This document shows, piece after piece, positions 10,893 through 54,768 of a stretch of 64,000 nucleotides of DNA. A program made the translations under genes and the position numbers. The notes under the pieces were generated by a model that searched no databases, was not told where the DNA came from, and saw only the letters and a list, made by a program, of their open reading frames with translations. The stretch is from Syntrophobacterales bacterium. Its GTDB lineage: Bacteria; Desulfobacterota; Syntrophia; Syntrophales; UBA5619. Position 1 is the stretch's first letter. Each line of letters starts with the position of its first letter. The stretch is taken from assembly GCA_019429105.1 (NCBI GenBank), contig JAHYJE010000017.1, positions 1 through 64,000 on the forward strand, given 5' to 3'.

Positions 10893-12287
10893 TTATTCCT
10901 TCCAGTTCCTCGCTGTCCTCTCATAGTGCGCGGCCCGTCCTTTTCCAATCAGCTTGAGGAGGTCGGCGGCTTCCAGTTCCTTTAAGTCGCGCCGAGCCTG
11001 ACGGTCGCCGACGTCACCGGCAAAACGCTTCAAATAATCGCTCAGGGTGATGGTGCTGCCAGGGTTGAGTTCGGCGAGAAGCCGGTTCTGCCGTTTGTTC
11101 AGATTCAATTCCGGCGCTTCAATCGACGCCCGGCTGTGAAGTGTGAGCGTAATCCCGTCCTCGTCCACGGCCCAGGTAGGTGCCGGAAGTCCCATTTCCC
11201 GACAGGTTTCGATCATCTTGTTAGTGCCCCGCCCGATCCGTTCCATGTAGTTCCGGATATAGAGGAAATGGGCGGTGTCCGGATTCGCGGGTATTGATGC
11301 GTGGGGCAGCCGTAATTTGTCTGCCCTCCATCCCATAGGCAGCCGTCCTGAGTTCCAAATTTCCACGCGAGCAGGATAGACCAGAACCGTCGCGCCGCTG
11401 GAAAACGAGGCATAGTCACGATGGGCAAGGGCGTTTACCAACCCTTCCCTGACGACATAATCCGGATATGCTTCCAGATTCTGGCGTAGCAATGAATCAG
11501 GGAGAAACTGAGCCGTTAACGGCGAGTTGCGATGAATGAACGCCCGCGCCTGCTCGATGACCTGCGTCACCGGCCCGTTCAGATCCGCCTGATCGAGGTA
11601 ATCTCCACCCTTGTCGGTCTGAAGGGCAAATGCCCTGACGCGGATCTGGGGGTTCCTCACGGCCGGCCGCTTACCGAAACAGACGTCGGCGGCATTTGTC
11701 AGCATGCCGCGATTCCACATGCCAAGGTCTGAAAAAACTGCCTCCGAGTCTTCCGGGTGTCGGAACTCAAAACGAGTTCCCGTCAATGCATCCTGGACGG
11801 TTCTCTGTATCTCCGATTTATCCAGATCTTCCATCGTTAATACAGGCGCGCCTCGCCGCTCCCATCGCTCAACCTCGGCGGACCGCCTCTGAAGCAGCAT
11901 CTGCAGGTCATCACCCGAAGCCGTCAAAGTGCGGGAACCACTGCGAAGGTAAACACGCTCGTTTGCCACGAAAGGGGTGTTTTTCCCTCCCGGAACGTCA
12001 ATCACGATAATCTGATTTTCACCCTGAACCTGTTCTATCCCCACAGAAAACAGCGATCTCGGCGAAATGGCCTTCATCAGGAACGAATGAAGCTCATCAA
12101 CTACCTTTTCGGCCTCTGGAATCCCCTCTACGCGCTTATTATCGTCAACCCCGATCAACAGCCTCCCCCCGCCGCTATTGAGCAATGCTGCAACGTGCGA
12201 GGCAATAATGTCCTTATCGTTCAGAGATGCCACGAATTCAAGTGTTTGGGACTCCCCCTGTTTGATCAGACTTTCGATGGAATTCAT
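10893..12287 (-). CDS. AlbA_2 (Schlafen-like) ATP-binding protein with C-terminal winged helix
   Basis: 464 residues. The N-terminal AlbA_2/Schlafen-type domain has QGESQTLEFVASL (11-23), the LLNSGGGRLLIGVDD strand-loop (about 36-50) and an RVYLRSGSRT motif. The middle carries a GHKL-like ATPase segment (REGLVNALAHRDY, GRGTNKMIETCREMGLPAP). The last ~70 residues look like a winged helix (DYLKRFAGDVGDRQARRDLKELE). Such proteins are annotated as regulators or as parts of phage-defence loci. Its ATG overlaps the DUF4062 stop by 4 bases, so the two are translationally coupled. Confidence 0.8.
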   Translation of the reverse strand: MNSIESLIKQGESQTLEFVASLNDKDIIASHVAALLNSGGGRLLIGVDDNKRVEGIPEAEKVVDELHSFLMKAISPRSLFSVGIEQVQGENQIIVIDVPGGKNTPFVANERVYLRSGSRTLTASGDDLQMLLQRRSAEVERWERRGAPVLTMEDLDKSEIQRTVQDALTGTRFEFRHPEDSEAVFSDLGMWNRGMLTNAADVCFGKRPAVRNPQIRVRAFALQTDKGGDYLDQADLNGPVTQVIEQARAFIHRNSPLTAQFLPDSLLRQNLEAYPDYVVREGLVNALAHRDYASFSSGATVLVYPARVEIWNSGRLPMGWRADKLRLPHASIPANPDTAHFLYIRNYMERIGRGTNKMIETCREMGLPAPTWAVDEDGITLTLHSRASIEAPELNLNKRQNRLLAELNPGSTITLSDYLKRFAGDVGDRQARRDLKELEAADLLKLIGKGRAAHYERTARNWKE

Positions 12288-12928
12288 ACTGGACCTCCCT
12301 TCTGCAGAGCTTTCCGTACAGCCTTTACATCGCCGAACGTATCCTTGACAAAGGCTTCGGCCTCCTGGAAGCGACGAAACTGGCTGACGGCAAAAAGTTG
12401 CGCATCTTCAGGCGATCCGAACGTCTGCACCCAGTTGCCGACACGGTCCTTATAGACCTCAACATCGCGTCTCGTGGCCATTTCATATATATCAACGATA
12501 CGGAGATCTTCGAAGATAGGCGACTTGACCAATTTCAGTTTATGACGTTTTTCTCTCGTTGTAAACCCCAGCTTGTCGAGAAAACCCCTGGCAAAGACCA
12601 CATGATCATGGGCCAGAATCCAGCGAGGCTTTTTCAATCTGATGGCTTCCCGCATTTCGTCATGGGTAATAGAATCGTCCTCCGGCTTCTCCTTACCGCT
12701 TCCATATCGCGGAAGAATGATGCCGAGAAACAGATCGCACTCCCTAACGGCAAGCTTGCAGCTCTCCAGGGCCGTGAGCTCGGGATAGACCGGCATCGTC
12801 CCTTTGTAAGACATCCATATCTCGTAGTTCATCATCTGGGCAAGAGAAGCATAGATTCGATCCAGCAGCTCCTCAAAGCCGAAAACGGCAGAGGAGACCA
12901 TAAGAATGGGTTTACGTTTCGTAGTCAT
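12284..12928 (-). CDS. DUF4062 domain protein
   Basis: 214 residues. KPILMVSSAVFGFEELLDRI at the start and the CKLAVRECDLFLGIILPRYGSG segment fit DUF4062, a TIR/nucleoside-hydrolase-like Rossmann domain often found as the sensor or N-terminal part of NTPase-type defence proteins. SITHDEMREAIRLKKPRWIL is the usual E-x-x-x-A region. It is a stand-alone domain here and is followed with a 4-base overlap by the AlbA_2 gene, so the pair probably acts as one unit. It heads this small operon; a candidate promoter with a palindrome lies about 190 bases upstream. Confidence 0.75.
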   Translation of the reverse strand: MTTKRKPILMVSSAVFGFEELLDRIYASLAQMMNYEIWMSYKGTMPVYPELTALESCKLAVRECDLFLGIILPRYGSGKEKPEDDSITHDEMREAIRLKKPRWILAHDHVVFARGFLDKLGFTTREKRHKLKLVKSPIFEDLRIVDIYEMATRRDVEVYKDRVGNWVQTFGSPEDAQLFAVSQFRRFQEAEAFVKDTFGDVKAVRKALQKGGPV

Positions 12929-13118
12929 AGTCGGTCGCTCATTTCTTCAAGATTGAAATCACCTTCCATAGCAGCAATATCTCCTGTCCTTTCCCCAAAA
13001 TTCAAAAATAATTGAGGTTGTCGCCTTGCAAACCTGATCCCGAACTGTCCCGGCTTTCCGACTGATTGCAGGCCGGTTTTCAACAGGGCAAAACTTTTTT
13101 GTTGTCGTCAATAATTTA

Positions 13119-13154
13119 ATTATAACAATAGCTTTATATATTCCGGAGCTCCGG
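13119..13154 (-). promoter_or_regulatory. Candidate promoter and 12-bp palindromic operator for the DUF4062-AlbA_2 pair
   Basis: On the minus strand a TATAAT box (13124-13119) lies 18 bases downstream of the perfect palindrome CCGGAGCTCCGG (13143-13154), which would cover the -35 position. There is no good -35 consensus, so an operator or activator site is plausible. The rest of the 303-base gap 12929-13231 shows no gene. Confidence 0.4.
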
Positions 13155-13231
13155 CATCCCCCCAAAAAACAGCCGTCCCCCGTCCCCCAGCTCAGCACTT
13201 AGCCCCATGTTTTTCCTCCCTGCCGCCGCCT

Positions 13232-13969
13232 TCATTGCTTCAGTGCAAAAGCTTGCAAGTCATTTTTTATATAGTATTTTGCGCCAAGTTTCGTAAAAAG
13301 TTCTTCCGTATCGTAAAGGAATTTACCCCAGTTCACAGTTTTTTCGTGTTCTTTCATGTGGTTTAGCTTGCCGACCTTCCAGAAATTCACATACGGATGC
13401 GCCATGCGGATTACCGTAAGCGCTTGCGCGGGATCGATCACCGGTTCAAGGCTGACCCATGTAAAAATGCCCTCTTTGTGAGCATTTTTCAAAACGGTCA
13501 GCCGGTCATCCACGGTCGAGGCGAACGTTTCCCAATCCTTGCGGATAGAGTCATCGGCGAAACAAAGCGTAATGCCCAGTTGCGTGTGAGCATCCCTCAT
13601 CAGTCCCATGTCTTCCTGGATGAGATCCGCACATCCTTTGGTCAATATCTGGCTGTTCAGCCGGTGTTTTGCGACAATACCCAGCGCCTGCCGCGTCAGT
13701 CGTTCCGTGCGCTCAATCGGCTGATACGGATCACTCAGAAAGCAAAAGAGAATGCGCCGCGAATCTCCACGCAGTTTCATGGCGTCTTTTTCGAGGTTTT
13801 GCAGCACATCACGCCGCGGCGCCGCTGTCGCATGCCACTTTTCCCCTGTCGTTCGCATACACGACGGCGCATAGCAGTACCGGCAGCCGTGCGTACAGCC
13901 GCGATAAAGATTGCAGGCCAGCTCGGAGTATTCCCGCGCCCGTCCTTTTGGTTCATAGACGACATTCAT
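13232..13969 (-). CDS. Radical SAM protein, spore-photoproduct-lyase-like
   Basis: 245 residues. The cluster-binding motif is C-T-H-G-C-R-Y-C (C25, C29, C32), preceded by ACNLYRGC, as in SPL/SplB-like radical SAM proteins. ILFCFLSDPYQPIE, SQILTKG, a GITLCFADDS stretch and WVSLEPVIDP are family strands of the TIM-barrel. The start at 13969 is chosen over the longer frame because GGGAGTTTGAAC precedes it and it begins 11 bases after the TcmP stop. The usual partner of such genes in accessory DNA is a three-Cys-motif partner (TcmP) protein, as here. A decayed second copy lies at 15483-15603. The target is unknown; true DNA photoproduct repair is not implied. Confidence 0.8.
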   Translation of the reverse strand: MNVVYEPKGRAREYSELACNLYRGCTHGCRYCYAPSCMRTTGEKWHATAAPRRDVLQNLEKDAMKLRGDSRRILFCFLSDPYQPIERTERLTRQALGIVAKHRLNSQILTKGCADLIQEDMGLMRDAHTQLGITLCFADDSIRKDWETFASTVDDRLTVLKNAHKEGIFTWVSLEPVIDPAQALTVIRMAHPYVNFWKVGKLNHMKEHEKTVNWGKFLYDTEELFTKLGAKYYIKNDLQAFALKQ

Positions 13970-13980
13970 GTTCAAACTCC

Positions 13981-14736
13981 CTAAAAATGTTTGATTGCTT
14001 CCGTAGCAGCCTTCTTCCATGCATCGTATGAAACGTGAAATGTTTGTTCGGGTAGTATTTTTTCTTTTACCATCTGATTTAGCGCGGCCTTAGCGTGCGA
14101 TGCCATTACGCCATTCCTCAGGGCAAACAGATAGACATCTTTGTTTGTCTTTAAGCGATGCTCAAGCAAGGCGGACTCAAGTTCCTTCTCGAAATCTTTA
14201 ATTTTAGTCGGTTTGTCATCTTCTGGGAATAATGATGGCTTTGACGGGTCAATCCCATCCCTGTCAATATCGAAGTTCGCATCGCCGCCTCGTTTCCATG
14301 CCACCCGAAGAAATTTGTCTATGCCGAGTGGATGAGCTGATCCAAAAACCAATCCATAGACATTCGAACCCTTCTTGATGGAAAACGGACCAAGATAATA
14401 CTCGGTGTCTTTCGGCAGCCAGCGACGATAAGCATCCGTAACAATCCGATGCACATTGGTTCCGTTCATCCTGAAACAATCCTCTTTGGTAACAGGTAAA
14501 TTATCCAGAATCCCCTGCGTTGTTCTGAAACGGTTGATGATGGACGAGGAAATGAAAAATATGAAATCCGTCTTGGGAAGTTCTACAATGCCTTGAAAGA
14601 TAGATTCCGTAATTTGATTCACACCATTCTGAGCAAGAAACAGAAGATTGGCACAGCGGCCTTTCATTTTTGGGCGCCATTTCTCAGATGCTTCCTTGAA
14701 GTCGCTATTCGATGTTTCAAAATAGACGCTTGGCAT
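13981..14736 (-). CDS. TcmP-like (three-Cys-motif partner) protein, apparently N-terminally short
   Basis: 251 residues. CANLLFLAQNGVNQITESIF followed by DFIFFISSSIINRF corresponds to the central strand and D/N-Q-x-G region of TcmP proteins, and the C-terminal half (AFKKGSNVYGL-type strand, winged-helix-like end) fits too. The N-terminal ~100 residues with the usual D-x-F-A-G-P-G motif are missing. The frame upstream (14737-14870) runs into a stop about 34 codons earlier without showing that motif. So it is either a short variant or a 5'-truncated gene. It is coupled to the radical SAM gene 11 bases downstream. Confidence 0.6.
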   Translation of the reverse strand: MPSVYFETSNSDFKEASEKWRPKMKGRCANLLFLAQNGVNQITESIFQGIVELPKTDFIFFISSSIINRFRTTQGILDNLPVTKEDCFRMNGTNVHRIVTDAYRRWLPKDTEYYLGPFSIKKGSNVYGLVFGSAHPLGIDKFLRVAWKRGGDANFDIDRDGIDPSKPSLFPEDDKPTKIKDFEKELESALLEHRLKTNKDVYLFALRNGVMASHAKAALNQMVKEKILPEQTFHVSYDAWKKAATEAIKHF

Positions 14737-14867
14737 TGCCTCTATTTGATCGGCAATACACGCTCTCGTTTCCCATGAATAATAAGTGTGCAGGGGTCGT
14801 TGATAGTGAAAGATGATCTACCTTCATGAGACACTCCTCTGACGACTTAACTCTCCTAACGGGGTAA

Positions 14868-15467
14868 TCAGATCAACTCACCTTGATTGCCGGTATCAAT
14901 GTCCATTACTCCTTGCACCGGTTTTCCCTTTCTATAGGCATCCCATTTCGATTTAAACTCGGCATCCAGCAATTCTTTATAGGTCGTAACTGAGGCGTCT
15001 ATTTGGTTTATTTCCTTCATTGCTATCACGCGGTTCAGGATTGCGCGTGATACCAGCGCGAGAGGAATGCTGGTATCAAAAGTAGCGATTTTTTTAGAAC
15101 GACATCCCCCACATAAAATACTGGCGCGGTGATCTTTATCTTTTATTTCAACTAAATGAAGATCTTGTATGGATGAGCAACTGGCACACGACGGAAACAT
15201 TTTTTCAGAATCAGGATCATTCGAGAAATCTAACTCCGTTTGACGATCGTCGATAACTTCACCGGGGCCTGATCCGTAAGTAAAAACCTCACCGGAACGA
15301 TAAAGATCTAACAAAATAGCCCGTCGAAAAGGCTGTTCAGGTGTTATGCCTGCTTTGAGAATCTTGTCTTTCCCGTCCGGAGTAAGATGAAACGTGATGA
15401 TATTTCCCCGGATGGCGGTTTTAATGTAATATTCTCCTTTATCTTTGTATTTATGTAGTACGGGCAC
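14868..15467 (-). CDS. Unknown protein with a CxxC...CxxC zinc ribbon
   Basis: 199 residues, not recognised. The GTG start at 15467 follows TGGAGGAAGATT. The first ~90 residues look like beta-rich/helical sequence with HLTPDGKDKILKAG. A C-A-S-C (about 94-97) and C-G-G-C (about 119-122) pair forms a probable zinc ribbon. The remainder is helical with IDASVTTYKELLDAEFKSKW. It lies between the TcmP gene and the remnant of a second radical SAM gene. A regulatory or nucleic-acid-binding role in this accessory block is only inference. Confidence 0.6.
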   Translation of the reverse strand: MPVLHKYKDKGEYYIKTAIRGNIITFHLTPDGKDKILKAGITPEQPFRRAILLDLYRSGEVFTYGSGPGEVIDDRQTELDFSNDPDSEKMFPSCASCSSIQDLHLVEIKDKDHRASILCGGCRSKKIATFDTSIPLALVSRAILNRVIAMKEINQIDASVTTYKELLDAEFKSKWDAYRKGKPVQGVMDIDTGNQGELI

Positions 15468-15482
15468 AATCTTCCTCCATTT

Positions 15483-15603
15483 TTGATATAGTATTTTGCG
15501 AAAATTCCCAGCACCCGCCGTGTCAGTCGTTTCGTGTGCTCAATCGGCTGATACGGATCACTCAGGAATCAAAAGGGAATACGCCGCGAATCGCCACGCA
15601 GTC
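15483..15603 (-). pseudogene. Decayed second copy of the SPL-like radical SAM gene
   Basis: About 120 bases closely match two separate parts of the gene at 13232-13969. The left edge (TATAGTATTTTGCG) equals its extreme C-terminal codons near 13267-13280. It then jumps to the segment at about 13664-13773 (TCAATCGGCTGATACGGATC is identical). Both parent sites contain TTTTGCG, so an internal deletion of about 390 bases between short direct repeats explains the remnant. The rest of 15468-15727 shows nothing else. Confidence 0.85.
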
Positions 15604-15727
15604 AAGCTTTTCACCAAGTCCGATTTTCAGAGCGATTCCCTAAAAAATAACGAATTATAAATCAACAAGTTATGCACGCATTTTCAGGTGAAATTTAAAA
15701 TGGCGCAAATAGACAAGGGCCATCCTT

Positions 15728-16345
15728 TTACAGCGAGATGCCTGCCGCTTTCTCTGCGAAACGCCGGAATGTGCAGGAGCGTTTGAGCCGATTGAAATCA
15801 GGCATAGCTTTAGCAATCTTTAGGGCGTCGCGAAAATCCTCATAACAACGATGGGCGCCCAGTTCCTGGTTAAAGATTTTAGTGAGGCAAGTCTTTGGTT
15901 TTCTGACCCTCTCAGGGTCTTTATAATTTGTCAGCCTTCCCACCCGATGCGGATGTTTGCAAGACGCTATGAAACTCCGTATCGCCCTTATATCTGCTAA
16001 CAGCCAGGCTTCAAGCTCTTCCTCTATGCAGACAAGGGCTACCTTGCTCAGCGGCACATTGCTGGATTGAAGCGACGAAAATATTTTCTGTCTGTCATTT
16101 TTTCGGCAAGGTTTGATATGTTTTTCCCGCCATGCCGGGTAGAGGTCCCAGATAATGACCACCTTGTCACAACTGTTAACCAATGTGGATGCAACAAGGC
16201 CGCAGTCCTCCAATAGATTCGTTTTGACATCCATATATTGAGAGACGATTTCGACACCAGGCCTTAATTTCTCCAGAAAATAGCGACACACCTGGCCGTC
16301 AGCCCCACCCCGCCCGCATTCAAAGATTAAGCCTACTCTCATCAT
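15728..16345 (-). CDS. DUF4276 family (TOPRIM-like) protein
   Basis: 205 residues. The N-terminal VGLIFECGRGGADGQVCRYF fits the acidic start of the family. VVIIWDLYPAW is the D-x-D-like strand, CIEEELEAWLLADIRAI the conserved E-x-E-A-W-L-L-A-D helix, and KPKTCLTKIF plus a C-terminal FNRLKRSCTFRRFAEK complete the pattern. DUF4276 proteins are usually encoded next to an AAA_21 ATPase and are proposed TOPRIM-type effectors like those of OLD/PARIS/Abi systems. The ATG follows the stop codon of the ATPase gene with no gap (TAAATG), so translation is coupled. Effector role is inference. Confidence 0.85.
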   Translation of the reverse strand: MMRVGLIFECGRGGADGQVCRYFLEKLRPGVEIVSQYMDVKTNLLEDCGLVASTLVNSCDKVVIIWDLYPAWREKHIKPCRKNDRQKIFSSLQSSNVPLSKVALVCIEEELEAWLLADIRAIRSFIASCKHPHRVGRLTNYKDPERVRKPKTCLTKIFNQELGAHRCYEDFRDALKIAKAMPDFNRLKRSCTFRRFAEKAAGISL

Positions 16346-17473
16346 TTAAGCCCGTGTTAGGTTTCCCATTGTGTAGAGCTTTCCAGGGGCAAATTTTCTT
16401 GCCCATTCAACTAAATCCTTGTTGTCTGCCGGTCTGCTGAAAACGGGGGAACCTTCCTCATCCCGTTCAACAACAACGATCTGCGAAAGCGGCAGAAGGT
16501 CCAAAAGATACGGTGAATGGGTCGTGGCAATGACCTGGCCCTTTCCCGTTTGAACGAACGTGCGAATTTCATTGATGATGAGATGAATTGTCCGCGGATC
16601 CAGACCGTTCTCAATTTCCTCTATAACTATGACGGACGGAGAATTAGGATGGCGGAGAAGACACAAGAGAGCCAAAACGCGTAGGGTCCCCTGAGACAAT
16701 AACCAACCGGGCAGCTTATCGGCAAGGCCTTTTTCCTTTAAGGTCAAATAAAAATTTCGCTCCAATTCCGAGGTTATGGCCGGTTGCAGATCATCGGCGT
16801 AGGGCAGAACGCTTTGCAATGTTTCGATGATGCCGCGGAATGTCGAAACATCCGCATTTCTTATGCTTTCAAAATACTCTGCGATGTTGGCGCCGTCCTT
16901 CGATAATTCCACTCCCCCTTTTGTTCTCTTCTGAAGAACGGGATACTGCATCTGCTGTGGCAGAATGGTAAGGAATTGCCATGAGGAGGCAAGCATCTGC
17001 AGACGTTTATCACTACTTATTCTGTATTCAGAGAAAGAATCTCCCATCAAACCAATTTGGGGGCCTTCCTCAGGGGACTTAACCTTGAGTTCTCTGATGT
17101 CGATAGTGTTGCCTTGGCGATCCATATCGAGTAATAAATTAACTTCCACGGGAATATCACTGACAAGCCCGCGACGAAAAGTTCCTTTGATTTTAAAAGA
17201 CATAGGATTAGAGGTCTTTCTATTCTTCTTCAATTTATGTTCAACCGCCTTGTTCCAGACGTGTTCAAAACCCCGCCACGGCTGAATAGCCGCGTCTATC
17301 CCGCTAAGAACAATTTGTTGAAACATCTCGAGTCCTTCGATCAAGCTGCTTTTTCCGGAGCCATTATTGCCGATAAAGACTGTGAGCGGAGTGAAGCGGA
17401 TCACGCCGCTATCGCGAACGGCTTTAAAATTACTCAGGCGGAAAGATTGCAACGGCAATTTGGGCACACTCAT
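16346..17473 (-). CDS. AAA_21 / SMC-like ATPase of a defence operon
   Basis: 375 residues. FRLSNFKAVRDSG (11-23) and the Walker A GNNGSGKSS (35-43) open the protein. LSQGTLRVLALLCLL is the signature-type helix, VIVIEEIENGLDPR the Walker B, and ATTHSPYLLD the H-loop, the layout of ABC-type AAA_21 ATPases (OLD/RloA-like without nuclease domain). Its start overlaps the methylase stop by 4 bases (17470-17473) and its stop abuts the DUF4276 start. It is thus the third gene of a tightly coupled four-gene operon and probably senses infection or controls the DUF4276 partner. Confidence 0.9.
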   Translation of the reverse strand: MSVPKLPLQSFRLSNFKAVRDSGVIRFTPLTVFIGNNGSGKSSLIEGLEMFQQIVLSGIDAAIQPWRGFEHVWNKAVEHKLKKNRKTSNPMSFKIKGTFRRGLVSDIPVEVNLLLDMDRQGNTIDIRELKVKSPEEGPQIGLMGDSFSEYRISSDKRLQMLASSWQFLTILPQQMQYPVLQKRTKGGVELSKDGANIAEYFESIRNADVSTFRGIIETLQSVLPYADDLQPAITSELERNFYLTLKEKGLADKLPGWLLSQGTLRVLALLCLLRHPNSPSVIVIEEIENGLDPRTIHLIINEIRTFVQTGKGQVIATTHSPYLLDLLPLSQIVVVERDEEGSPVFSRPADNKDLVEWARKFAPGKLYTMGNLTRA

Positions 17474-20400
17474 TTTATTAACCCCCTTTCTACGTCCCGG
17501 TAGGCATTGGCGGCAGCAATACGCTCCGGGTCAGGCAAAAACAATTGGGAAAGTACATACAAGAATTCTTCTTCCGTCAAGCCGTACAGGTGGGCGACGA
17601 GACCATCGATCTGGGCCTCCAGCGGCAAGGTGAAGGCATCGGGATTCTGCCGTTTTGCGGCGATAATCTGGTCAACAAGTGTGATAAACTGCTCCTGAGC
17701 GGCCGGCAAGATTTTTTTTATCGGGATAAACGAGAGCGGCTTGTTAAAATATTCCCTGACTTTTCCCTTTGGTTTGCCGATAAATCCATAAAACCAGTCG
17801 ATAAGCTTCGAATTCAGCAAGGATAAAACATATTTGATGTTTATCTTTTTATCAGTAATTACAATTGCTCGAATATCGCCACCATCGTTGAAGTATTGCT
17901 CATTATCAAAGGCAAAACGATTTCCCTCAGCCCTATAGGGGACAACAATTTTTTCCTTGGCGTCAAATATTTCTTTATTTCGGGGCCGATCGAATCTGTA
18001 CCAGGGATATAATCCGCTTGCCACTTCATTCCGGTCTTGTAACGTGTCTTCATGCAACTTTAAATATGAATATGCCTGTGGGTATTTTTTTATATCCGTA
18101 TGATTATCCACATAAATCAAACAATTTCCTCTGTCGCGAATTGCATATCTTCCAATATCGCCATTCTTTAAATTCCTTCTTAAAACCTCCTTTTCAATCC
18201 CCATTTCCTCTGCAAACTTGTTTGTAATTGTGAAAACAGTATTCTTCCCGGATTTCGATCCTTGTTCAATTCCTGCAATATCTCCAAGCAAGACGGAATC
18301 TTTTTTTAGTTTTTCAATAATCGATGAAGCCCGTTGATCTGCTATAATCCAATCATCTTTTAAATCCTCCCGTTTGATCGCAAAGGATCGTAGGTGTTTT
18401 TCAATGTCACTTGATGTTATTTTCTCATCCGAGGCTGCCTCAAAAAAGATGATTTCGCTGGGCATTGTCCCTTTGTAAGAAAAAGAGATGCAAGTATGAA
18501 TACTTGCCGCATCAAATACCATGCGATCCTTGAAATTGATTGCCTTGGAAATATGGTCTTTTAGATAACGCCTCAAATTTCTGGCGTACTCGTTGCCGAG
18601 GAAATAGTTGGAAGTAATTAACGCGCAACAACCGTTTTCCCGTAAATGTTCGATACCCAGATAAATGAAGTAGTAAACAATATCATTATATCCGGTATGA
18701 ATAACCTTGTAATGATCTGCCAGATAATTATATAGCTCTTTACCGATGGTGCTGACGTTAAAATATGGAGGATTGCCGATCACAATATCGAAACCATCCT
18801 GGACATTGAACATAGTTTCCATGTCGAAGAATCCGGCGGCATGGATGGGGTCGAAGGGGTTCCAGGAGGCGATCAGTCCGGCGTTTGTCGTGCTGTATTT
18901 GTTTTCGATAAGCGCCTTCTTTAACTCTTCCCTTTTTACTCTGTCGGCCTGTCGCAGTCTCTTTTTATCAGTGTATTTACGCGTATAGAACATCCTCTGC
19001 CGCAAATTCTTCAGCTCATCCTCAATAGTATAAACCTTGCCGCCTCCCAATTCGAGTTCCTGCTGGGGCTTGTCGATCCCGATAAGAGTGTTGGCAGCGA
19101 CGAATTTGGTTTCAAGATTGGGCAGGGCCAGGATGTTGCGGTTAGGCCGCTCGTCTATCACCTTCTGGTCGACAATTAGAGAGATAAAAAACCGGAGTTT
19201 GGCGATCTGAACGGCGATGTTCTGGATATCCACGCCGTAGATGCAGTTTTCAATCAAAAAGAGCTTGCGGGTATAGTCCAGTTCATGCCGATTGCTGCTG
19301 AAAGCCTCTTCGATTGCCCGGACGCGCTGCTCAACATTCTCCAGTGTCCTTCTGCGGATATCTTCATCCTCCATTTTTTCCGCACGTTGCCGGTCGCGCA
19401 TAGCCTTATCTAATTGGGCCTGTTCCCACTGCTTGTTATAGGGGTCGAGCTTTCCCAGAATGAAGACCATCTTGTGGAGAATACCCATCGGAAAAGCGCC
19501 GGAACCGCAAGCGGGATCGAGAATTTTACAGTTATTAATGGCCTCGATGAGGACGTTCACCTCTGCCGTGTCTGAATCCTTTTCATCTTTAAATAAATGT
19601 CCAGTCTCATTATACGAGAGAAGATGACTCAGTTTGTCATGAACGGCTTTTTTCTCCCCTGGAGAGAGTTTTTCAGGATTTGAAGACGATGCCGCTTCTT
19701 TATCGTAAAATTCTATTAATTGGTTTTCCAAATAATGCAGCAGACTTTCATCCACCATGTAGTTAACAATTTCGCGGGGAGTGTAAAAGGAACCAGTCTG
19801 CTTGCGTGCGGTTGTCTGAGTTTCGGGATTATAACTTGCCAGAAGATTTTCAAAGACCTTTCCCAGAAGTTCCGGGTCAAGAGCAATTTCCTCTTCCACC
19901 GGCGTGTTTTCCTCAATGGTAAACTTGTACTTTTCCAGAATGCGTATCAAGCCATTGACAGTGACATCCTTGTATTTAGGACTGCCATAATCTTCTGATA
20001 GATCAATATGGGTGTTCTCAGCAAAGAAAAGTTCATCAGGCACAACTGGCTGTTTGGTGAAGGTCGAAGAAAAACCGTCGATGCGAGTTTCTACATTCTT
20101 GCCATCGATGGTCTCAAAGGTATCGAGGCACTCGAAAAGACCGCCGTTGAGAAAAGGTATATCTTCAAAATACCTTATTGCCTCACCTTTTTCCTGAAAA
20201 AGGTCCTTATATCGAAATGCTGTCGGGATAGAATATTCCTCGGATACGCCTGATGCGCTTTTCTTGTTGGTAATAAAATGTCTACTGTCGGCAACATCCT
20301 TATTCATGTCCGTATTCAGGGTGGCGAAGAAGAGGTTCTGCAGAATGGCCTTATAATAACTGCTCGGATCACCGTTTTTGCTTAGTATTGGAGATTTTAC

Positions 20401-21276
20401 CAGTATTCTTGCCAGCTCTGCTGTGTCAAAAAGAGTTGCCGAAATCAGGTTTTTTTCCTTCAAAAACCAGCAAAAAATGAGGCGAGTCAGCAACCGAATA
20501 ACATTAAGTGAGCAATTATGATGTTCTGCCAATTTATGGGGATTTGGGTAGAGGACCCGTTTAACAGCCCAGAAGTGCCAGTCTGCAATTTCTTTGAAGA
20601 AACGCTTGTTTAATTCCAATGTGTCCAGTGTTTGCTGCCAAGCCCGTTGGAGTTCGACAAAATTTGTGAAGCCTTGACGATGGTGAAGTTGCTCGAAGGA
20701 TAGATCGAAAAGTATTTCGACATGTCCCCGGTGCGGATTTTCAAAATTTATATCCTTAATGAGGGTGATCTTTTCCAGAACATCTTTGATTTCATCCCGT
20801 TTGTGCTGTCGGCGATTAATGACCGAGAGCGTAAGAAATTGGCCATATTTGAACAGAATCATTACCGGCATCGGGAACATGTGGTTCACTTCGCGTGTAA
20901 TATTGCTCAGTTCCGTGCGGCTGTATTGGTCTTTGACTAATCCGATGGTGAAGAACAGGTAGGTCTCAATTACTGTGCGGTCAACTTTTACTGTATCAAA
21001 CAGGGAAATTTGCTTGCGCACCTCTTCCTTGGAGAGCTGAAACAGCAAATCAACATATTCCCAGTCTTTCACCAAAGCTTTTTCTTCATTGAATTTAGCT
21101 TGAGTATCAACGAAAAATTCTTTGAATGTGGCATAGTTGGGTTTATCGAAGGGCGCCTGGCGTTCGGTATTATAGCCAAGCGTTTGAAAAAGATTGAGGG
21201 CGTTGGCAGACAGTTGTCCGTCGCTAAAGGAACCAAGGGAAGTAATAATTTTTTGTTTTACGTCCGGATTTGCCAT
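17470..21276 (-). CDS. Eco57I-type adenine methyltransferase / specificity protein
   Basis: 1268 residues. The N-terminal helical part (1-480) is followed by GSFYTPREIVNYMV (495-508), SAM motif DPACGSGAFPMG (587-598), YGVDIQNIAVQIAKLRFF and the catalytic NPPY (835-838). The last ~250 residues look like a TaqI/type I target-recognition domain. I see no PD-(D/E)xK nuclease, so cutting may depend on the PLD-helicase encoded just upstream, whose stop is 5 bases before this start. It should methylate N6-adenine at a specific site to mark self DNA. It overlaps the ATPase gene by 4 bases. Confidence 0.92.
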   Translation of the reverse strand: MANPDVKQKIITSLGSFSDGQLSANALNLFQTLGYNTERQAPFDKPNYATFKEFFVDTQAKFNEEKALVKDWEYVDLLFQLSKEEVRKQISLFDTVKVDRTVIETYLFFTIGLVKDQYSRTELSNITREVNHMFPMPVMILFKYGQFLTLSVINRRQHKRDEIKDVLEKITLIKDINFENPHRGHVEILFDLSFEQLHHRQGFTNFVELQRAWQQTLDTLELNKRFFKEIADWHFWAVKRVLYPNPHKLAEHHNCSLNVIRLLTRLIFCWFLKEKNLISATLFDTAELARILVKSPILSKNGDPSSYYKAILQNLFFATLNTDMNKDVADSRHFITNKKSASGVSEEYSIPTAFRYKDLFQEKGEAIRYFEDIPFLNGGLFECLDTFETIDGKNVETRIDGFSSTFTKQPVVPDELFFAENTHIDLSEDYGSPKYKDVTVNGLIRILEKYKFTIEENTPVEEEIALDPELLGKVFENLLASYNPETQTTARKQTGSFYTPREIVNYMVDESLLHYLENQLIEFYDKEAASSSNPEKLSPGEKKAVHDKLSHLLSYNETGHLFKDEKDSDTAEVNVLIEAINNCKILDPACGSGAFPMGILHKMVFILGKLDPYNKQWEQAQLDKAMRDRQRAEKMEDEDIRRRTLENVEQRVRAIEEAFSSNRHELDYTRKLFLIENCIYGVDIQNIAVQIAKLRFFISLIVDQKVIDERPNRNILALPNLETKFVAANTLIGIDKPQQELELGGGKVYTIEDELKNLRQRMFYTRKYTDKKRLRQADRVKREELKKALIENKYSTTNAGLIASWNPFDPIHAAGFFDMETMFNVQDGFDIVIGNPPYFNVSTIGKELYNYLADHYKVIHTGYNDIVYYFIYLGIEHLRENGCCALITSNYFLGNEYARNLRRYLKDHISKAINFKDRMVFDAASIHTCISFSYKGTMPSEIIFFEAASDEKITSSDIEKHLRSFAIKREDLKDDWIIADQRASSIIEKLKKDSVLLGDIAGIEQGSKSGKNTVFTITNKFAEEMGIEKEVLRRNLKNGDIGRYAIRDRGNCLIYVDNHTDIKKYPQAYSYLKLHEDTLQDRNEVASGLYPWYRFDRPRNKEIFDAKEKIVVPYRAEGNRFAFDNEQYFNDGGDIRAIVITDKKINIKYVLSLLNSKLIDWFYGFIGKPKGKVREYFNKPLSFIPIKKILPAAQEQFITLVDQIIAAKRQNPDAFTLPLEAQIDGLVAHLYGLTEEEFLYVLSQLFLPDPERIAAANAYRDVERGLIK

Positions 21277-21281
21277 TCACA

Positions 21282-24200
21282 TTACCTCAATACCAGCCAC
21301 GTTATCAGCTCAAAGTTATCAATTTCATTTATTTGTTTCGATCTGGGGATGATGAGCGCGCTTCTGTCGCTCAACAATTTCTGAGCGCCACGCTTTTTAA
21401 ACACAATGATTATTTCCGCAACCGCCTTTTTCAGGAGATCGGCATATTTATCCATCCGCTGCCCATTATCGGTCTCGGTGTTGAAAAACTCGCATAGAGC
21501 ACGGTAAGGCTCCGTTCGTCCCTGGCATAAAAGCCTGTATATTTCCAGTATCTGTTTGGCATTGGTGTAATTATACCGTACTGTGCCGTCATCGCGGATG
21601 TAAACGAGAAAATATGGCTGGAGGGGATTTATCGCTTCGTTTCCATCCGTCACACCTTTTTGTCTCAGGCAATAAAAAGCCCCGGGCTTGATAATTTCCC
21701 TCTCCGCCGGAGAAAAACTTCTGTTGTCGCTTGCAATTGAAGCTTCCTCTGCCGGCGAAGGTATGACTGCATAGAGGCCGAACGGCGCATTTTCCAGCTT
21801 TTGCCGATTGGCATTAATGTAACTGAGCAGTTCAATGCGGAAGTCATCGAGTGTAAAATCGGTAAGCGATACCGTTTCATCCATATCTTCCAGATCGAGA
21901 ACCTCCTCCTGAAGTTTCTTGAGTTGGCGATTACGATATTTCAAGTCTTCAGATATTAGGTCTTCAAGCTGCTCCGTGTTGAGAATATTGTCTTCCCCGG
22001 TCGCCGTCATATCCACCAACGCCATGCGGGCTTCGACCCGTTCCTTGAGATTGATATAACTATCGAGGTCTTTTGTAGGCCAGAAATTAACCAATTGGAT
22101 TTTTGCGTTTATACTTCCCAGGCGGTCAATGCGGCCAAAACGCTGGATGATGCGTACCGGATTCCAATGAATATCGTAGTTGATAAGAAAATCGCAGTCT
22201 TGCAGGTTCTGACCTTCGCTGATGCAGTCGGTGGCGATCAGGATGTCTATTTCCCCTTGCTGCGGCGCAGCTTTCATCTTTGCTCTGTTTTTGGATACTG
22301 GCGAGAAATTGGTTAAAATGCTGTCATAATCGCTTTTGCCGAAGGTCGTTTGCGTATATGTTCCCGTAATCAGGGCTGAATTAAGTTTCAAATCGGTTTT
22401 TATCCAACTTGATAAGTTGTCATGAAGATATTGAGCGGTATCAGCAAAAGCGGTAAAAATAAGGACTTTATTATTTCCGTTATTCGTCTGGCGCGCGATT
22501 TTGTCTCCAATGATTCTTTTCAATTCAAACAGTTTTGCATCCCGGTCCGGCGTCACGGCAAGGGCGTTATTATACAAATCTACAAGCGCGGCTTTATCCC
22601 GGCCTAAGTCCTCAAGCCATTCTTTAAGCTTCAAATCGGCAAGATCAAACTTGAGTTTTTTCCCTACCTGCCATTGATCGTGCTCTTCTCCGTTCTCTTC
22701 AAGTTCCTCTTCATCCGGTTCGGGCGCCTCCAGGGCTGTTTCCTGAGCAGGGATTTTCTGCTTCATGAAGGAATCAATCCTTTTCTCCAGGACTTCTATT
22801 TTTTGAATTGTCCTATCCAGCGAAATCTCAAATGATTCAATCGAACTCTCCAGCCTTTTGAGGTAATTAACCTTCATCATGCCAATCAAAAAGCTTTCAC
22901 GATCGGCCTGCTTGAAAGCCAGAACTTCCGTTTTAGCTAATTCTTCGTACTTCTGCTCTTTTTCTTCTAATACATAAGCGGAAGGATTGAATATGGAGAA
23001 TTTGTATTCTAAAATTTGCTTATTCAGACGGTCGTAGGTGGGAAATCTGCTCTTTAAATCAATGACCGGGTAAACTGAAGAAGGTTTTAGTCTTTCCGGA
23101 AATGAGCCGATCATTTCAAGTTTGTAGAACGATTTTATATGCTTGCGACTGCGCGCGATGGTCAATTCATCAAGCAGTTTGAAAAAAGCCGAATCGAGCC
23201 GCTCCAGCAAGTCTTTAAGGTTTCGGTGCGGATTCCTCTTGTGATCCGCCCAGTTGGTAAAATTTGTCTGGGCCGTTTTGAGGGTCAGGGAAATGTCTTT
23301 AATGCCGCAAGTCTCAAGCAGTGCGTCGTCCCTTCCCTCGGTAATCAGGGCAATTTGGTTCCTTAAATCCCGCAACGTATTATTGACGGGCGTCGCCGAC
23401 AGCATCAACACCCTTGTTTTTACACCGGACTTGATTATCTTTTCCATGAGCCATTTGGCCCGATTCATTTTACTGGTTCCGTCCTCCTTTGCCCTCTCCA
23501 CAGGATTGCCTCGGAAGTTGTGCGACTCATCAATGACAACAAGATCATAAGCGCCCCAATTGAAGTTGCCGAGTTCAACGCCGTTCGCATCGGACCTCCC
23601 GATCTCTCTCCCCATGTCCGTATGATAGAGGACTGTGTAGTTAAACCGATCTTTAACAAAAGGATTGAGGGCATGATTTTGGCCGGCCTGATAAATGGTC
23701 CAGTTTCCGGTAAGCTTTTTAGGGCAAAGAACGAGAACGCGGCTGTTTAAAAGCTCAAAATATTTGATAACAGCAAGGGCTTCATAGGTCTTGCCGAGCC
23801 CGACGCTGTCGGCAATTATACAGCCGTTGAGTTTTAATATCTTGTTGATAGCGCCCTTAACGCCGTCTTTTTGGAAGTTGTACAGGGTATTCCATATCTC
23901 ACTTTCAAAGAAGCCGGTTTTTTCGTTAAGCAGTCCTCCTTTGGCCTGGTCATCGAGATAGTTTTCAAAAATATGATACAGCGTTTTGAAATAAATAAAT
24001 TCAGGCTCATTCTCAGCAAAAAGCTGGGTAAGATACCTTAAAACATCATCTTTTACATCTTCTACAAGCCCGGTTGCGTCATTCCAGATGCCGTCAAACC
24101 ACTGCTTTAATTCCTGCCGGTCCCGGTCGCTATCGATTATCATGTTCAGTTCTATATTGTTGTTTCCACCGAGGCCAAGACCATTGACGGTAAAGTTTGA

Positions 24201-24620
24201 GCTGCCGACAACCGCCTTCTCAATGCCGCTTTCCTGAATTACATGGTACATTTTGCCGTGCAGAAAATTGGGCTTAACCATTGAGCGGACATCGACTTTT
24301 TCCTTAATCCATTTTGAACAGGCGGCCGCAATTGATTTTTGCGTCAGCCTTTGTTCAAGGGGGATAATCAATTGATCATCTTCTATTTTAAAACTTCTAT
24401 GATTATTTTTACTGGGATCTATCGATTTGATAAATGTTGGCTCGCCGAATAAAAACCGCAGCCGTTCTATTTTCTCAAGCTCCGCTTGCAAATGATGATA
24501 AGCGTAGATCGTGAAGTATGCGGAGACAATGGAAACGCTTGAGCTGCCTTTTACAATTTCCTTTAAGAAATCGCCTACATTGCCGTACTGATGATTATCT
24601 CTGATAGAGGCATTTGTCAT
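21282..24620 (-). CDS. PLD-domain SNF2-type helicase/translocase
   Basis: 1112 residues. The N-terminal phospholipase-D-like domain (1-170) has one HxK half-site, HGKMYHV (121-127), with GSSNFT (139-144), the form found in nucleases of this superfamily. The SNF2-type motor follows: Walker A DSVGLGKT (271-278), DESH (364-367), SATPVNN, then the second lobe with TDCISEGQNLQ and QRFGRIDRLGS. A helical insert (about 560-680) carries acidic EEEL repeats. ATG 24620 is preferred to the TTG at 24647 because a GGAG lies 10 bases upstream. It is the first gene of the operon and probably translocates on and cuts unmodified DNA. Confidence 0.92.
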   Translation of the reverse strand: MTNASIRDNHQYGNVGDFLKEIVKGSSSVSIVSAYFTIYAYHHLQAELEKIERLRFLFGEPTFIKSIDPSKNNHRSFKIEDDQLIIPLEQRLTQKSIAAACSKWIKEKVDVRSMVKPNFLHGKMYHVIQESGIEKAVVGSSNFTVNGLGLGGNNNIELNMIIDSDRDRQELKQWFDGIWNDATGLVEDVKDDVLRYLTQLFAENEPEFIYFKTLYHIFENYLDDQAKGGLLNEKTGFFESEIWNTLYNFQKDGVKGAINKILKLNGCIIADSVGLGKTYEALAVIKYFELLNSRVLVLCPKKLTGNWTIYQAGQNHALNPFVKDRFNYTVLYHTDMGREIGRSDANGVELGNFNWGAYDLVVIDESHNFRGNPVERAKEDGTSKMNRAKWLMEKIIKSGVKTRVLMLSATPVNNTLRDLRNQIALITEGRDDALLETCGIKDISLTLKTAQTNFTNWADHKRNPHRNLKDLLERLDSAFFKLLDELTIARSRKHIKSFYKLEMIGSFPERLKPSSVYPVIDLKSRFPTYDRLNKQILEYKFSIFNPSAYVLEEKEQKYEELAKTEVLAFKQADRESFLIGMMKVNYLKRLESSIESFEISLDRTIQKIEVLEKRIDSFMKQKIPAQETALEAPEPDEEELEENGEEHDQWQVGKKLKFDLADLKLKEWLEDLGRDKAALVDLYNNALAVTPDRDAKLFELKRIIGDKIARQTNNGNNKVLIFTAFADTAQYLHDNLSSWIKTDLKLNSALITGTYTQTTFGKSDYDSILTNFSPVSKNRAKMKAAPQQGEIDILIATDCISEGQNLQDCDFLINYDIHWNPVRIIQRFGRIDRLGSINAKIQLVNFWPTKDLDSYINLKERVEARMALVDMTATGEDNILNTEQLEDLISEDLKYRNRQLKKLQEEVLDLEDMDETVSLTDFTLDDFRIELLSYINANRQKLENAPFGLYAVIPSPAEEASIASDNRSFSPAEREIIKPGAFYCLRQKGVTDGNEAINPLQPYFLVYIRDDGTVRYNYTNAKQILEIYRLLCQGRTEPYRALCEFFNTETDNGQRMDKYADLLKKAVAEIIIVFKKRGAQKLLSDRSALIIPRSKQINEIDNFELITWLVLR

Positions 24621-24663
24621 CGGATTTTTACTCCAATCATTGCACAAAAAAAGTATTCCATAT

Positions 24664-24810
24664 GAGCTAATTGCAAAACTCCGAACTCTGTCATTCCCGC
24701 GACGCTTCTGCGGGAAAGCGGAGCTTAATGTTCATAATGTAGACTTAAAAACCTCGAAAAATCAGATCCCCGATAAAAGAATTCGGGGATGACAGACGTT
24801 TTGCAATTAC
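24664..24810 (+). repeat. MITE-like repeat, divergent copy C
   Basis: Starts GAGCTAATTGCAAAAC, carries the GTCATTCCCGCGACGCTTCTGCGGGAAAG hairpin region and ends GTTTTGCAATTACCGCTC. The centre has drifted from the main family. About 122 bases from 24749 to 24870, spanning its right half and adjoining DNA, recur at 36088-36210 with two differences. Confidence 0.8.
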
Positions 24811-38533: not shown

Positions 38534-38622
38534 ACATTAAGCTCCGCTTTGTGAACATTAAGCTCCGCTTTGTGAACATTAAGCTCCGCTTTCGGGCATG
38601 ACACGGAGTTTTGCAATTACCT
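38529..38622 (+). repeat. Tandem triplet of a 21-bp unit plus MITE right end
   Basis: Three head-to-tail copies of GTGAACATTAAGCTCCGCTTT (the first lacks its leading G) run into GGAGTTTTGCAATTACC, the right end of a divergent MITE copy. The unit is the internal family sequence, amplified, probably by slippage. Confidence 0.85.
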
Positions 38623-38665
38623 CTACGTTTTCAGCTTTCGTCGCGCCGCCCCGCGCTTGGGGGCT

Positions 38666-48399: not shown

Positions 48400-48571
48400 G
48401 GTAATGGCAAAACGTTTCGTCATCCCCGAAAACGGAGCTTAATGTACACAATGCTCTTGTCGGGCATCCATGATTTCAAATAGTTAAAAACTGGATTATG
48501 AACATTAAACTTCGTTTTCCCGCCCAGAAGCGTCGCGGGAATGACAGAGTCGGGAGTTTTGCAATTGGCTC
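48398..48571 (+). repeat. MITE-like repeat, copy F (174 bp)
   Basis: Starts GAGGTAATGGCAAAAC, ends GTTTTGCAATTGGCTC, and is flanked by perfect AACATT direct repeats (48392-48397 and 48572-48577). It separates purH from purE within the purine operon and supplies GA of the purH stop codon. Confidence 0.9.
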
Positions 48572-54615: not shown

Positions 54616-54768
54616 GAGGAAATTGCAAAACCATTTGTCATTCCCGAAAGCGCAGCTTAATGTCCATAATGTCTTTATCGGGAATATGGTTTTTCAAGCA
54701 GTTAGAACCAGATTACCGCTCAGAATCGTTGCGGGAACGACAAGAATGGGGAGTTTTGCAATTGGCTC
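54616..54768 (-). repeat. MITE-like repeat, copy G (153 bp, inverted)
   Basis: Starts GGAGGAAATTGCAAAAC-like (from 54616 GAGGAAATTGC) and ends GTTTTGCAATTGGCTC. It is flanked by AAAG on both sides (54612-54615 and 54769-54772). Its interior (TTTTTCAAGCAGTTAGAACC) is in the opposite orientation to copies A, B and H. It lies just upstream of the thioredoxin gene. Confidence 0.9.

Follow-up and report, generated by a model that had tools for sequence, protein, structure and literature searches.

The window analysed here, a stretch of 64,000 nucleotides from a Syntrophobacterales bacterium (GenBank assembly GCA_019429105.1, contig JAHYJE010000017.1, positions 1 to 64,000), carries on its reverse strand, between positions 15728 and 24620, four tightly spaced genes that probably constitute a two-layer anti-phage operon, in which a restriction core is backed up by an abortive module resembling PARIS. 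Restriction operons with embedded defence modules are known; this one combines their parts anew, and its module is a rare, divergent pair of the HEC-01 type. The first gene encodes an HKD (PLD-like) nuclease joined to an SNF2 helicase/translocase (21282–24620; 1112 residues from an ATG start, with the Pfam domains PLDc_2, RE_NgoFVII, SNF2-rel_dom and Helicase_C), and its open reading frame (ORF) extends upstream to a possible TTG at 24647. It is followed by an Eco57I-type N6-adenine methylase with a TaqI_C specificity domain (17470–21276; 1268 residues; Eco57I, N6_Mtase and TaqI_C), an OLD/ABC-like ATPase (16346–17473; AAA_21/AAA_15, Walker A GNNGSGKS) and a divergent DUF4276 protein, the predicted effector (15728–16345; Pfam DUF4276, 36.8 bits, with the cut-off at 30.2). 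The helicase translation has a single HKD half-site (HxK: LHGKMY...GSSN), and that of the methylase contains DPACGSG and NPPY. The helicase and methylase genes are 5 bases apart, the methylase and ATPase genes overlap by 4 bases (ATGA), and the ATPase and DUF4276 genes abut with 0 bases between them. A first-pass annotation of this DNA had described just this layout, with the same domains and spacings, as one tightly spaced defence operon that unites a restriction-like and an abortive-infection-like pair; the ORFs and Pfam bear this out. Judging from the spacing, the four genes may share a single transcript; between 14700 and 25100, promoter-like and terminator-like sites were no commoner than in shuffled sequence.

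In the model that we propose, the methylase would mark adenines of the cell's own DNA at the site chosen by its TaqI_C domain and so protect self, and the HKD-SNF2 protein would translocate along unmarked DNA and cut it; having a single HKD half-site, it would act as a dimer. A single half-site that acts as a dimer is familiar from enzymes of the BfiI type. The OLD-like ATPase would serve as sensor and as clamp of the small DUF4276 protein, which it would free or activate once the core is obstructed or the infection advances, with an abortive response as in PARIS. The sensing step, the chemistry of the effector and the target of the DUF4276 protein are conjectural parts of this model.

A conserved core with exchangeable modules

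On another contig of the same genome there is a second core of this kind (locus L009), whose helicase and methylase are 86% and 45% identical to those of the window; the core DNA is 80% identical over 3955 bases, and this similarity extends into the methylase gene. Behind the second core stand DarT and DarG (126.4 and 293.1 bits in PADLOC). That one genome holds two cores so closely related, each with its own module, is an unusually clear trace of module exchange.

To place the two cores among their relatives we surveyed 89 loci: the best 80 of at least 322 confirmed loci from species genomes, together with the window, L009 and 7 others (phylum helicase matches taken with their flanks, n = 8, minus L123, which lies in the same record as L042). 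ORFs were called mechanically, and membership of group A was decided by helicase identity together with methylase matches; of the counts that follow, that of the HKD motif is the only one independent of this selection. Group A comprises 48 loci, of which 39 have an Eco57I-type methylase; DUF4391, mod and res genes like those of locus L102 were found in none of them (0/48; BLAST). The 41 loci of group B are type III-like: BLAST with the L102 genes found DUF4391 in 19, mod in 33 and res in 32, and an Eco57I-type methylase in 0. In an annotated plasmid the group B order reads helicase, DUF4391, site-specific methyltransferase and DEAD/DEAH helicase. The HKD motif goes with the methylase core, being present in 42/42 group A helicases (window included) and 0/40 of group B (helicases longer than 900 residues). 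Because of this split, and because the group B res protein of L102 has an endonuclease domain according to Pfam (other res proteins are known by BLAST only), HKD is most simply read as the group A nuclease, apparently kept where no other core nuclease is seen. Within group A, 9 of the 48 loci have no called methylase (several reach contig ends), L055 has no called helicase and L089 has the two genes in reverse order. In L120 (3872–9703, reverse strand) a 1944-residue ORF without a Pfam match adjoins the group A helicase, and no methylase is seen.

Modules occupy two places, the gap between helicase and methylase and the 3′ side of the methylase. In the 37 group A loci in helicase-first order this gap holds one or more ORFs of 60 residues or longer on the same strand in 14 and none in 23. 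The 3′ side of the methylase is readable in 26 of the 38 loci with both genes (window included), the other 12 being unreadable there; 19 of the 26 carry an ORF of the same description no more than 60 bases away, and in 9/19, again with the window, the junction is an exact 4-base overlap. L009 belongs to the 7 loci without such an ORF, its DarT gene starting 155 bases on. Since 19/26 loci have an ORF this near and 9/19 of these ORFs overlap by 4 bases, methylase and module are coupled beyond chance.

These junctions bear on the thought that two unrelated defence pairs happen to adjoin in a defence island, which we regard as very improbable. It is true that further candidate defence genes lie downstream and that both pairs also occur separately within this genome, the core with DarTG and another ATPase and DUF4276 pair flanked by genes for a DUF1156 methylase and an SNF2 helicase. 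Against it stand the 4-base and 0-base junctions of the window, the recurrence of the 4-base overlap in 9/19 module junctions and the same layout on two plasmids from another phylum.

The slot is occupied by a wide range of proteins. The residents seen were the YhcG PDDEXK nuclease, Schlafen AlbA_2, SMC-like ATPases, KilA-N, Bro-N, RhuM, Uma2 and Fic, as well as AbiEii with GmrSD, DUF3800, Abi_C, Abi_2, TIR-TPR, DUF3644, and DUF4238 with an ATPase and DUF3226. Pfam was run on a hand-chosen set of 40 proteins, 6 of which had no family. Not all of these are defence proteins: two metabolic genes (L089) and a transposase (L064, counted as an insert) were also in the set. DUF4276 was found in the window only among the 48 group A loci (three DUF4276 profiles, E ≤ 0.01). 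In group B, the gap between mod and res holds an ORF of at least 60 residues in 12/30 loci with both genes in order, and in L102 it holds an ATPase and DUF4276 pair. A quick tree of the helicases, with 31 rows and 15 module labels, shows 19 changes of label (minimum 14), compared with a mean of 22.6 changes (standard deviation 1.1) in shuffles, 1/500 of which came as low as 19; the labels were assigned by the analyst from Pfam or BLAST, and loci without an identified module were omitted. Modules thus switch often, yet less than by chance: inheritance plays a part, most of all for the SMC-like ATPases. A fixed four-gene system as the general rule is rejected by the second core with DarTG and by the locus survey.

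Locus L042 (same record as L123) has, at 12804–15791, DUF4238, ATPase and DUF3226 genes 3′ of the methylase, and then a second, 72-residue copy of the C-terminal end of the methylase. This duplicated methylase end is another trace of recombination at this site.

As for the core proteins themselves, the best PADLOC model for the helicase is C3a139 'HKD+Snf2' (422.7 bits, nearly full-length), which names a protein only. The methylase resembles type IIG enzymes (REase_MTase_IIG, 195.7 bits in PADLOC) and matches two solved sequences, both adenine-specific methyltransferases (7lni and 8cxz, which we take to be CamA). Its residues 1–466 (19879–21276, reverse strand) were modelled with 18 relatives in AlphaFold2 at a predicted local distance difference test score (pLDDT) of 77, and the model may represent a degenerate type IIG nuclease-like fold: the best VIA match is DrdV, a weak one (Z 5.9, root-mean-square deviation 4.0, 121 aligned), and BpuSI and Holliday-junction resolvases rank below it. 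Foldseek gave no match to this model at E ≤ 0.001, and a D...(E/Q)xK pattern was not recognised among the conserved residues of this part. The helicase occurs in 26/395 phylum genomes at E ≤ 1e-60 and in 3/31 near-relative genomes, both counts including its own. Two more distant helicase and methylase pairs (L010 and L011) are present in the same genome, with helicases about 27% and methylases 30% and 24% identical. A literature search, the coverage of which did not extend to the preprint of Payne et al., identified no paper that describes this two-gene core.

Origin of the methylase 3′ end

Two plasmids, of Calothrix and Anabaena, have helicase, methylase, ATPase and DUF4276 genes in the order of the window, with the same 4-base overlap between methylase and ATPase. 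The ATPase and DUF4276 protein are 47–53% identical to those of the two plasmids, the DUF4276 protein being 47–48% identical to its counterparts in Calothrix and Anabaena. Relative to Anabaena, identity is 53% for the ATPase and 48% for the DUF4276 protein, compared with 27% for the helicase and 21% for the methylase in their best local alignments. The last 51 residues of the methylase depart from this pattern, with identities of 57% to Anabaena, 61% to Calothrix and 51% to Synechocystis. Up to about residue 1215, on the other hand, the protein follows its own clade (55% to L124, the specificity part included, and 41–45% to the four others compared). Because the tail is 57–61% identical to plasmid methylases to which the body has about 21% identity, and the body is 41–55% identical to its own clade, the methylase gene of the window appears to be a mosaic, and the pair seems to have come in along with a 3′ methylase segment from another core. 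The foreign end covers about the last 50 codons (17470–17631, reverse strand). Its GC content is 0.525, compared with 0.471 for the ATPase gene, 0.482 for the DUF4276 gene and 0.428 for the rest of the methylase gene, which at a length of 162 bases is a weak hint.

Among 42 methylase ends compared (several clipped by contig ends, L042 and L123 belonging to one record, and the L087 end not being that of a core methylase), the foreign tail was seen at the end of the window's methylase only, and a pattern search found it in none of the other called proteins of these loci. The reading of the tail as a general type IIG motif was set aside, no other of the ends compared carrying it. The tail type is present in 4 plasmid records, all cyanobacterial. 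Two of the 4 are from Synechocystis; here VapC separates the helicase gene from the methylase gene, and different small genes follow 3′ of the methylase. Because these Synechocystis records have the tail with other genes behind the methylase, the tail marks a second core type and not strictly the module.

Do the four genes then form a single system, in which the ATPase and the DUF4276 protein are obligate subunits of the restriction machine? The plan would be comparable to that of MADS, which has a methylase, an ATPase and a small protein distantly like the DUF4276 protein of the window, and weak MAD2, MAD3 and MAD4 matches, the shared order and overlap on the Calothrix and Anabaena plasmids, and the methylase tail that is shared along with the pair all speak for it. 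We nevertheless consider it unlikely, given that the paralogous core of the same genome carries DarTG instead, that the other 25 loci readable 3′ of the methylase show no DUF4276, and that the MAD scores are far under their cut-offs. The proposal of the first-pass annotation that the four genes belong together as a unit is therefore borne out in so far as two cyanobacterial plasmids share their order; as a fixed system it finds no support in the second core with DarTG or in the 48 loci found through the helicase, where DUF4276 is confined to the window.

A bolder reading concerns the C-terminal tail of the methylase, which might be a matched adaptor for the module behind it. Modules would then move between unrelated cores as cassettes whose start lies within the last ~50 codons of the methylase gene, and the tail may let the ATPase monitor the core; this is a conceivable arrangement rather than a likely one. 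If it holds, tail, overlap and effector pair stay together in transfer. Embedded defence modules are known; we know of no account of how they enter or leave a restriction operon unbroken. Because there are two related cores with different modules and a mosaic methylase that matches the apparent source core type of the module, both an exchange route by recombination inside the methylase 3′ end and a physical coupling of core and module become testable.

The HEC-01-like pair

According to PADLOC, the HEC-01A models are the best for the ATPase (147.5 bits, at the top of 115 families), and the DUF4276 protein matches HEC-01B at 37.1 bits. By these best models the pair is HEC-01-like, with an ATPase match and a small DUF4276 protein adjoining it in the same order with a 0-base gap. 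The pair of the window differs from other HEC-01 pairs as a divergent subgroup with a matching methylase tail. A Walker A ATPase stands directly 5′ of DUF4276 in 16/21 called cases, among them the window, L102 and the other pair of the same genome (22 loci were inspected, one without a called ORF; in several of the 5 misses the ORF seems to have been picked in the wrong frame). That other pair, on a third contig between the DUF1156 methylase and SNF2 helicase genes, scores 685.6 and 279.2 bits with the HEC-01 models, the A and B labels being swapped relative to the window pair; such pairs are thus also found inside this cluster and inside a type III-like operon (L102). We presume that HEC-01 goes back to the embedded candidates of the 2024 preprint of Payne et al. 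Within the literature covered, no paper came up for DUF4276 and none for HEC-01 with PADLOC.

The cluster of the same genome that holds this other pair (L181, G000:C31, 5785–14638) consists of a DUF1156/HmaB-like methylase, a strong HEC-01 pair, a 166-residue protein and an HmaA/BrxH-like SNF2 helicase, and resembles Hma or DUF499-type BR clusters. Classical ATPase and DUF4276 pairs were also seen on contigs of the viral collection (L271, 2889–4651; L272, 2907–4687).

The DUF4276 subgroup of the window is rare within the collections searched. It was found in 1/326 phylum genomes, its own, in 2/72,556 plasmid records and, in a search without a positive control, in 0/386 genomes of the phylum of G420; 24 pattern matches on viral contigs included no confirmed relative, and phages gave none. 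The ATPase occurs in 2/395 phylum genomes at E ≤ 1e-25, its own included.

Could the ATPase and DUF4276 protein be an addiction module of the toxin-antitoxin type, which keeps the operon stable and has no sensing role? Toxin-antitoxin-like genes do occupy the same places in this or the second core type (DarTG; an AbiEii-type gene), and a VapC toxin with a small neighbour lies between the Synechocystis helicase and methylase. The ATPase itself, however, resembles HEC-01, AriA (106.2 bits in PADLOC) and OLD-type ATPases, its best solved match being an OLD-family enzyme (32.6 bits); such ATPases are known as sensors rather than antitoxins. We therefore hold this explanation to be quite unlikely.

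Several points weigh against reading the operon as a restriction core backed up by a PARIS-like abortive module. The enzyme activities of all parts are predicted from sequence, and with the same gene order recurring in two further records, there is room for a dedicated four-part system. The alignment of the subgroup with classical DUF4276 covers about the C-terminal half only, with a middling probability (84.5% and 68.6%). The single-sequence model of the DUF4276 protein is alpha/beta and poor (pLDDT 55), with E9 and D67 at strand ends, a placement that would suit a TOPRIM site; among the matches listed for this model there was no TOPRIM chain, and the best PDB matches were common alpha/beta folds. 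No solved relative was found by sequence either, and the 'TOPRIM-like' effector of the first-pass annotation thus stays an unproven fold.

Relation to named systems and genomic setting

Genes of named systems were sought among the 16 proteins of window 7716–31650. DISARM, which the first-pass annotation had named for its related parts in separate genes, is rejected: DrmD reached 151.8 bits against a cut-off of 610 and 97.9 against 950 (NCBIfam; the best DrmD match of the helicase in PADLOC was 126.5 bits), and DrmA, DrmB (a DUF1998 protein) and DrmC, the separate PLD protein, were absent from the 16. For MADS, also rejected, the scores were 20.9 against 720 bits (MAD2), 111.5 against 420 (MAD3) and 19.7 against 160 (MAD4) with NCBIfam cut-offs, and among the matches listed in a literature search for MADS were yeast-type Mad3 and unrelated work only. 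BREX is likewise rejected, with PglX at best at 65.2 bits against a cut-off of 500 and no PglZ among the 16 proteins. HmaA was matched at 79.4 bits in PADLOC, and HmaB and HmaC were not among the best 25 of 42 families for the second gene and of 115 for the third. PARIS shares with the window an OLD-like ATPase (AriA model) followed by a small effector. AriB, however, carries DUF4435; the effector of the window is a DUF4276 protein without a DUF4435 match, has matches to DUF4276, HEC-01 and MAD4 models only, and is thus no AriB.

The nearest comparisons are with systems that carry backup effectors. PMC12839542 reports that in PARIS the ATPase holds and frees the small effector, and describes backup effectors in BREX and BR systems, OLD-ABC with TOPRIM included, for which a like release upon failure of the core is proposed. 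According to the same paper BR systems are centred on DUF499, and BR Type-2 is described with DUF3780, an HKD nuclease fused to a Swi2/Snf2 helicase, an N6-methylase and backup effectors. HKD-SNF2 protein, N6-methylase and backup module are common to BR Type-2 and the window, whereas DUF499 and DUF3780 are absent among the 16 proteins, and BR Type-2 was rejected. In PMC12255303, DarTG2 is embedded in a type I restriction locus, the RptR island. As a defence module lodged within such an operon it is the closest experimental precedent among the work consulted; unlike the window, it has a type I core (HsdM/HsdS/HsdR) and another module.

The island is bounded above by metabolic genes for aldehyde ferredoxin oxidoreductase, a pyridoxamine oxidase-like protein, glutamate dehydrogenase and an aminotransferase, and below by genes for a cyclopropane synthetase-like protein, arginine decarboxylase and nitroreductase. 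On the reverse strand at 14868–15467, between the operon and the gene of a TcmP-like protein, lies the gene of a 199-residue protein without a match in Pfam, PADLOC or NCBIfam. The TcmP-like protein (TIGR04474, 58.9 bits with a cut-off of 53; PADLOC PDC-M30A, 255 bits) is encoded by a gene that overlaps that of a radical SAM protein (13232–14736, reverse strand), a further candidate defence pair. At 10893–12928, also in reverse, the gene of a DUF4062 protein overlaps that of a Schlafen AlbA_2 and HATPase_c_4 protein, a type that is also a resident of the module slots of the core. Finally, blastn detected a short genomic repeat just 5′ of both helicase gene copies (window 24664–24716; L009 9539–9671), with further copies in the window at 48517–48571, 54711–54768 and 38591–38624.

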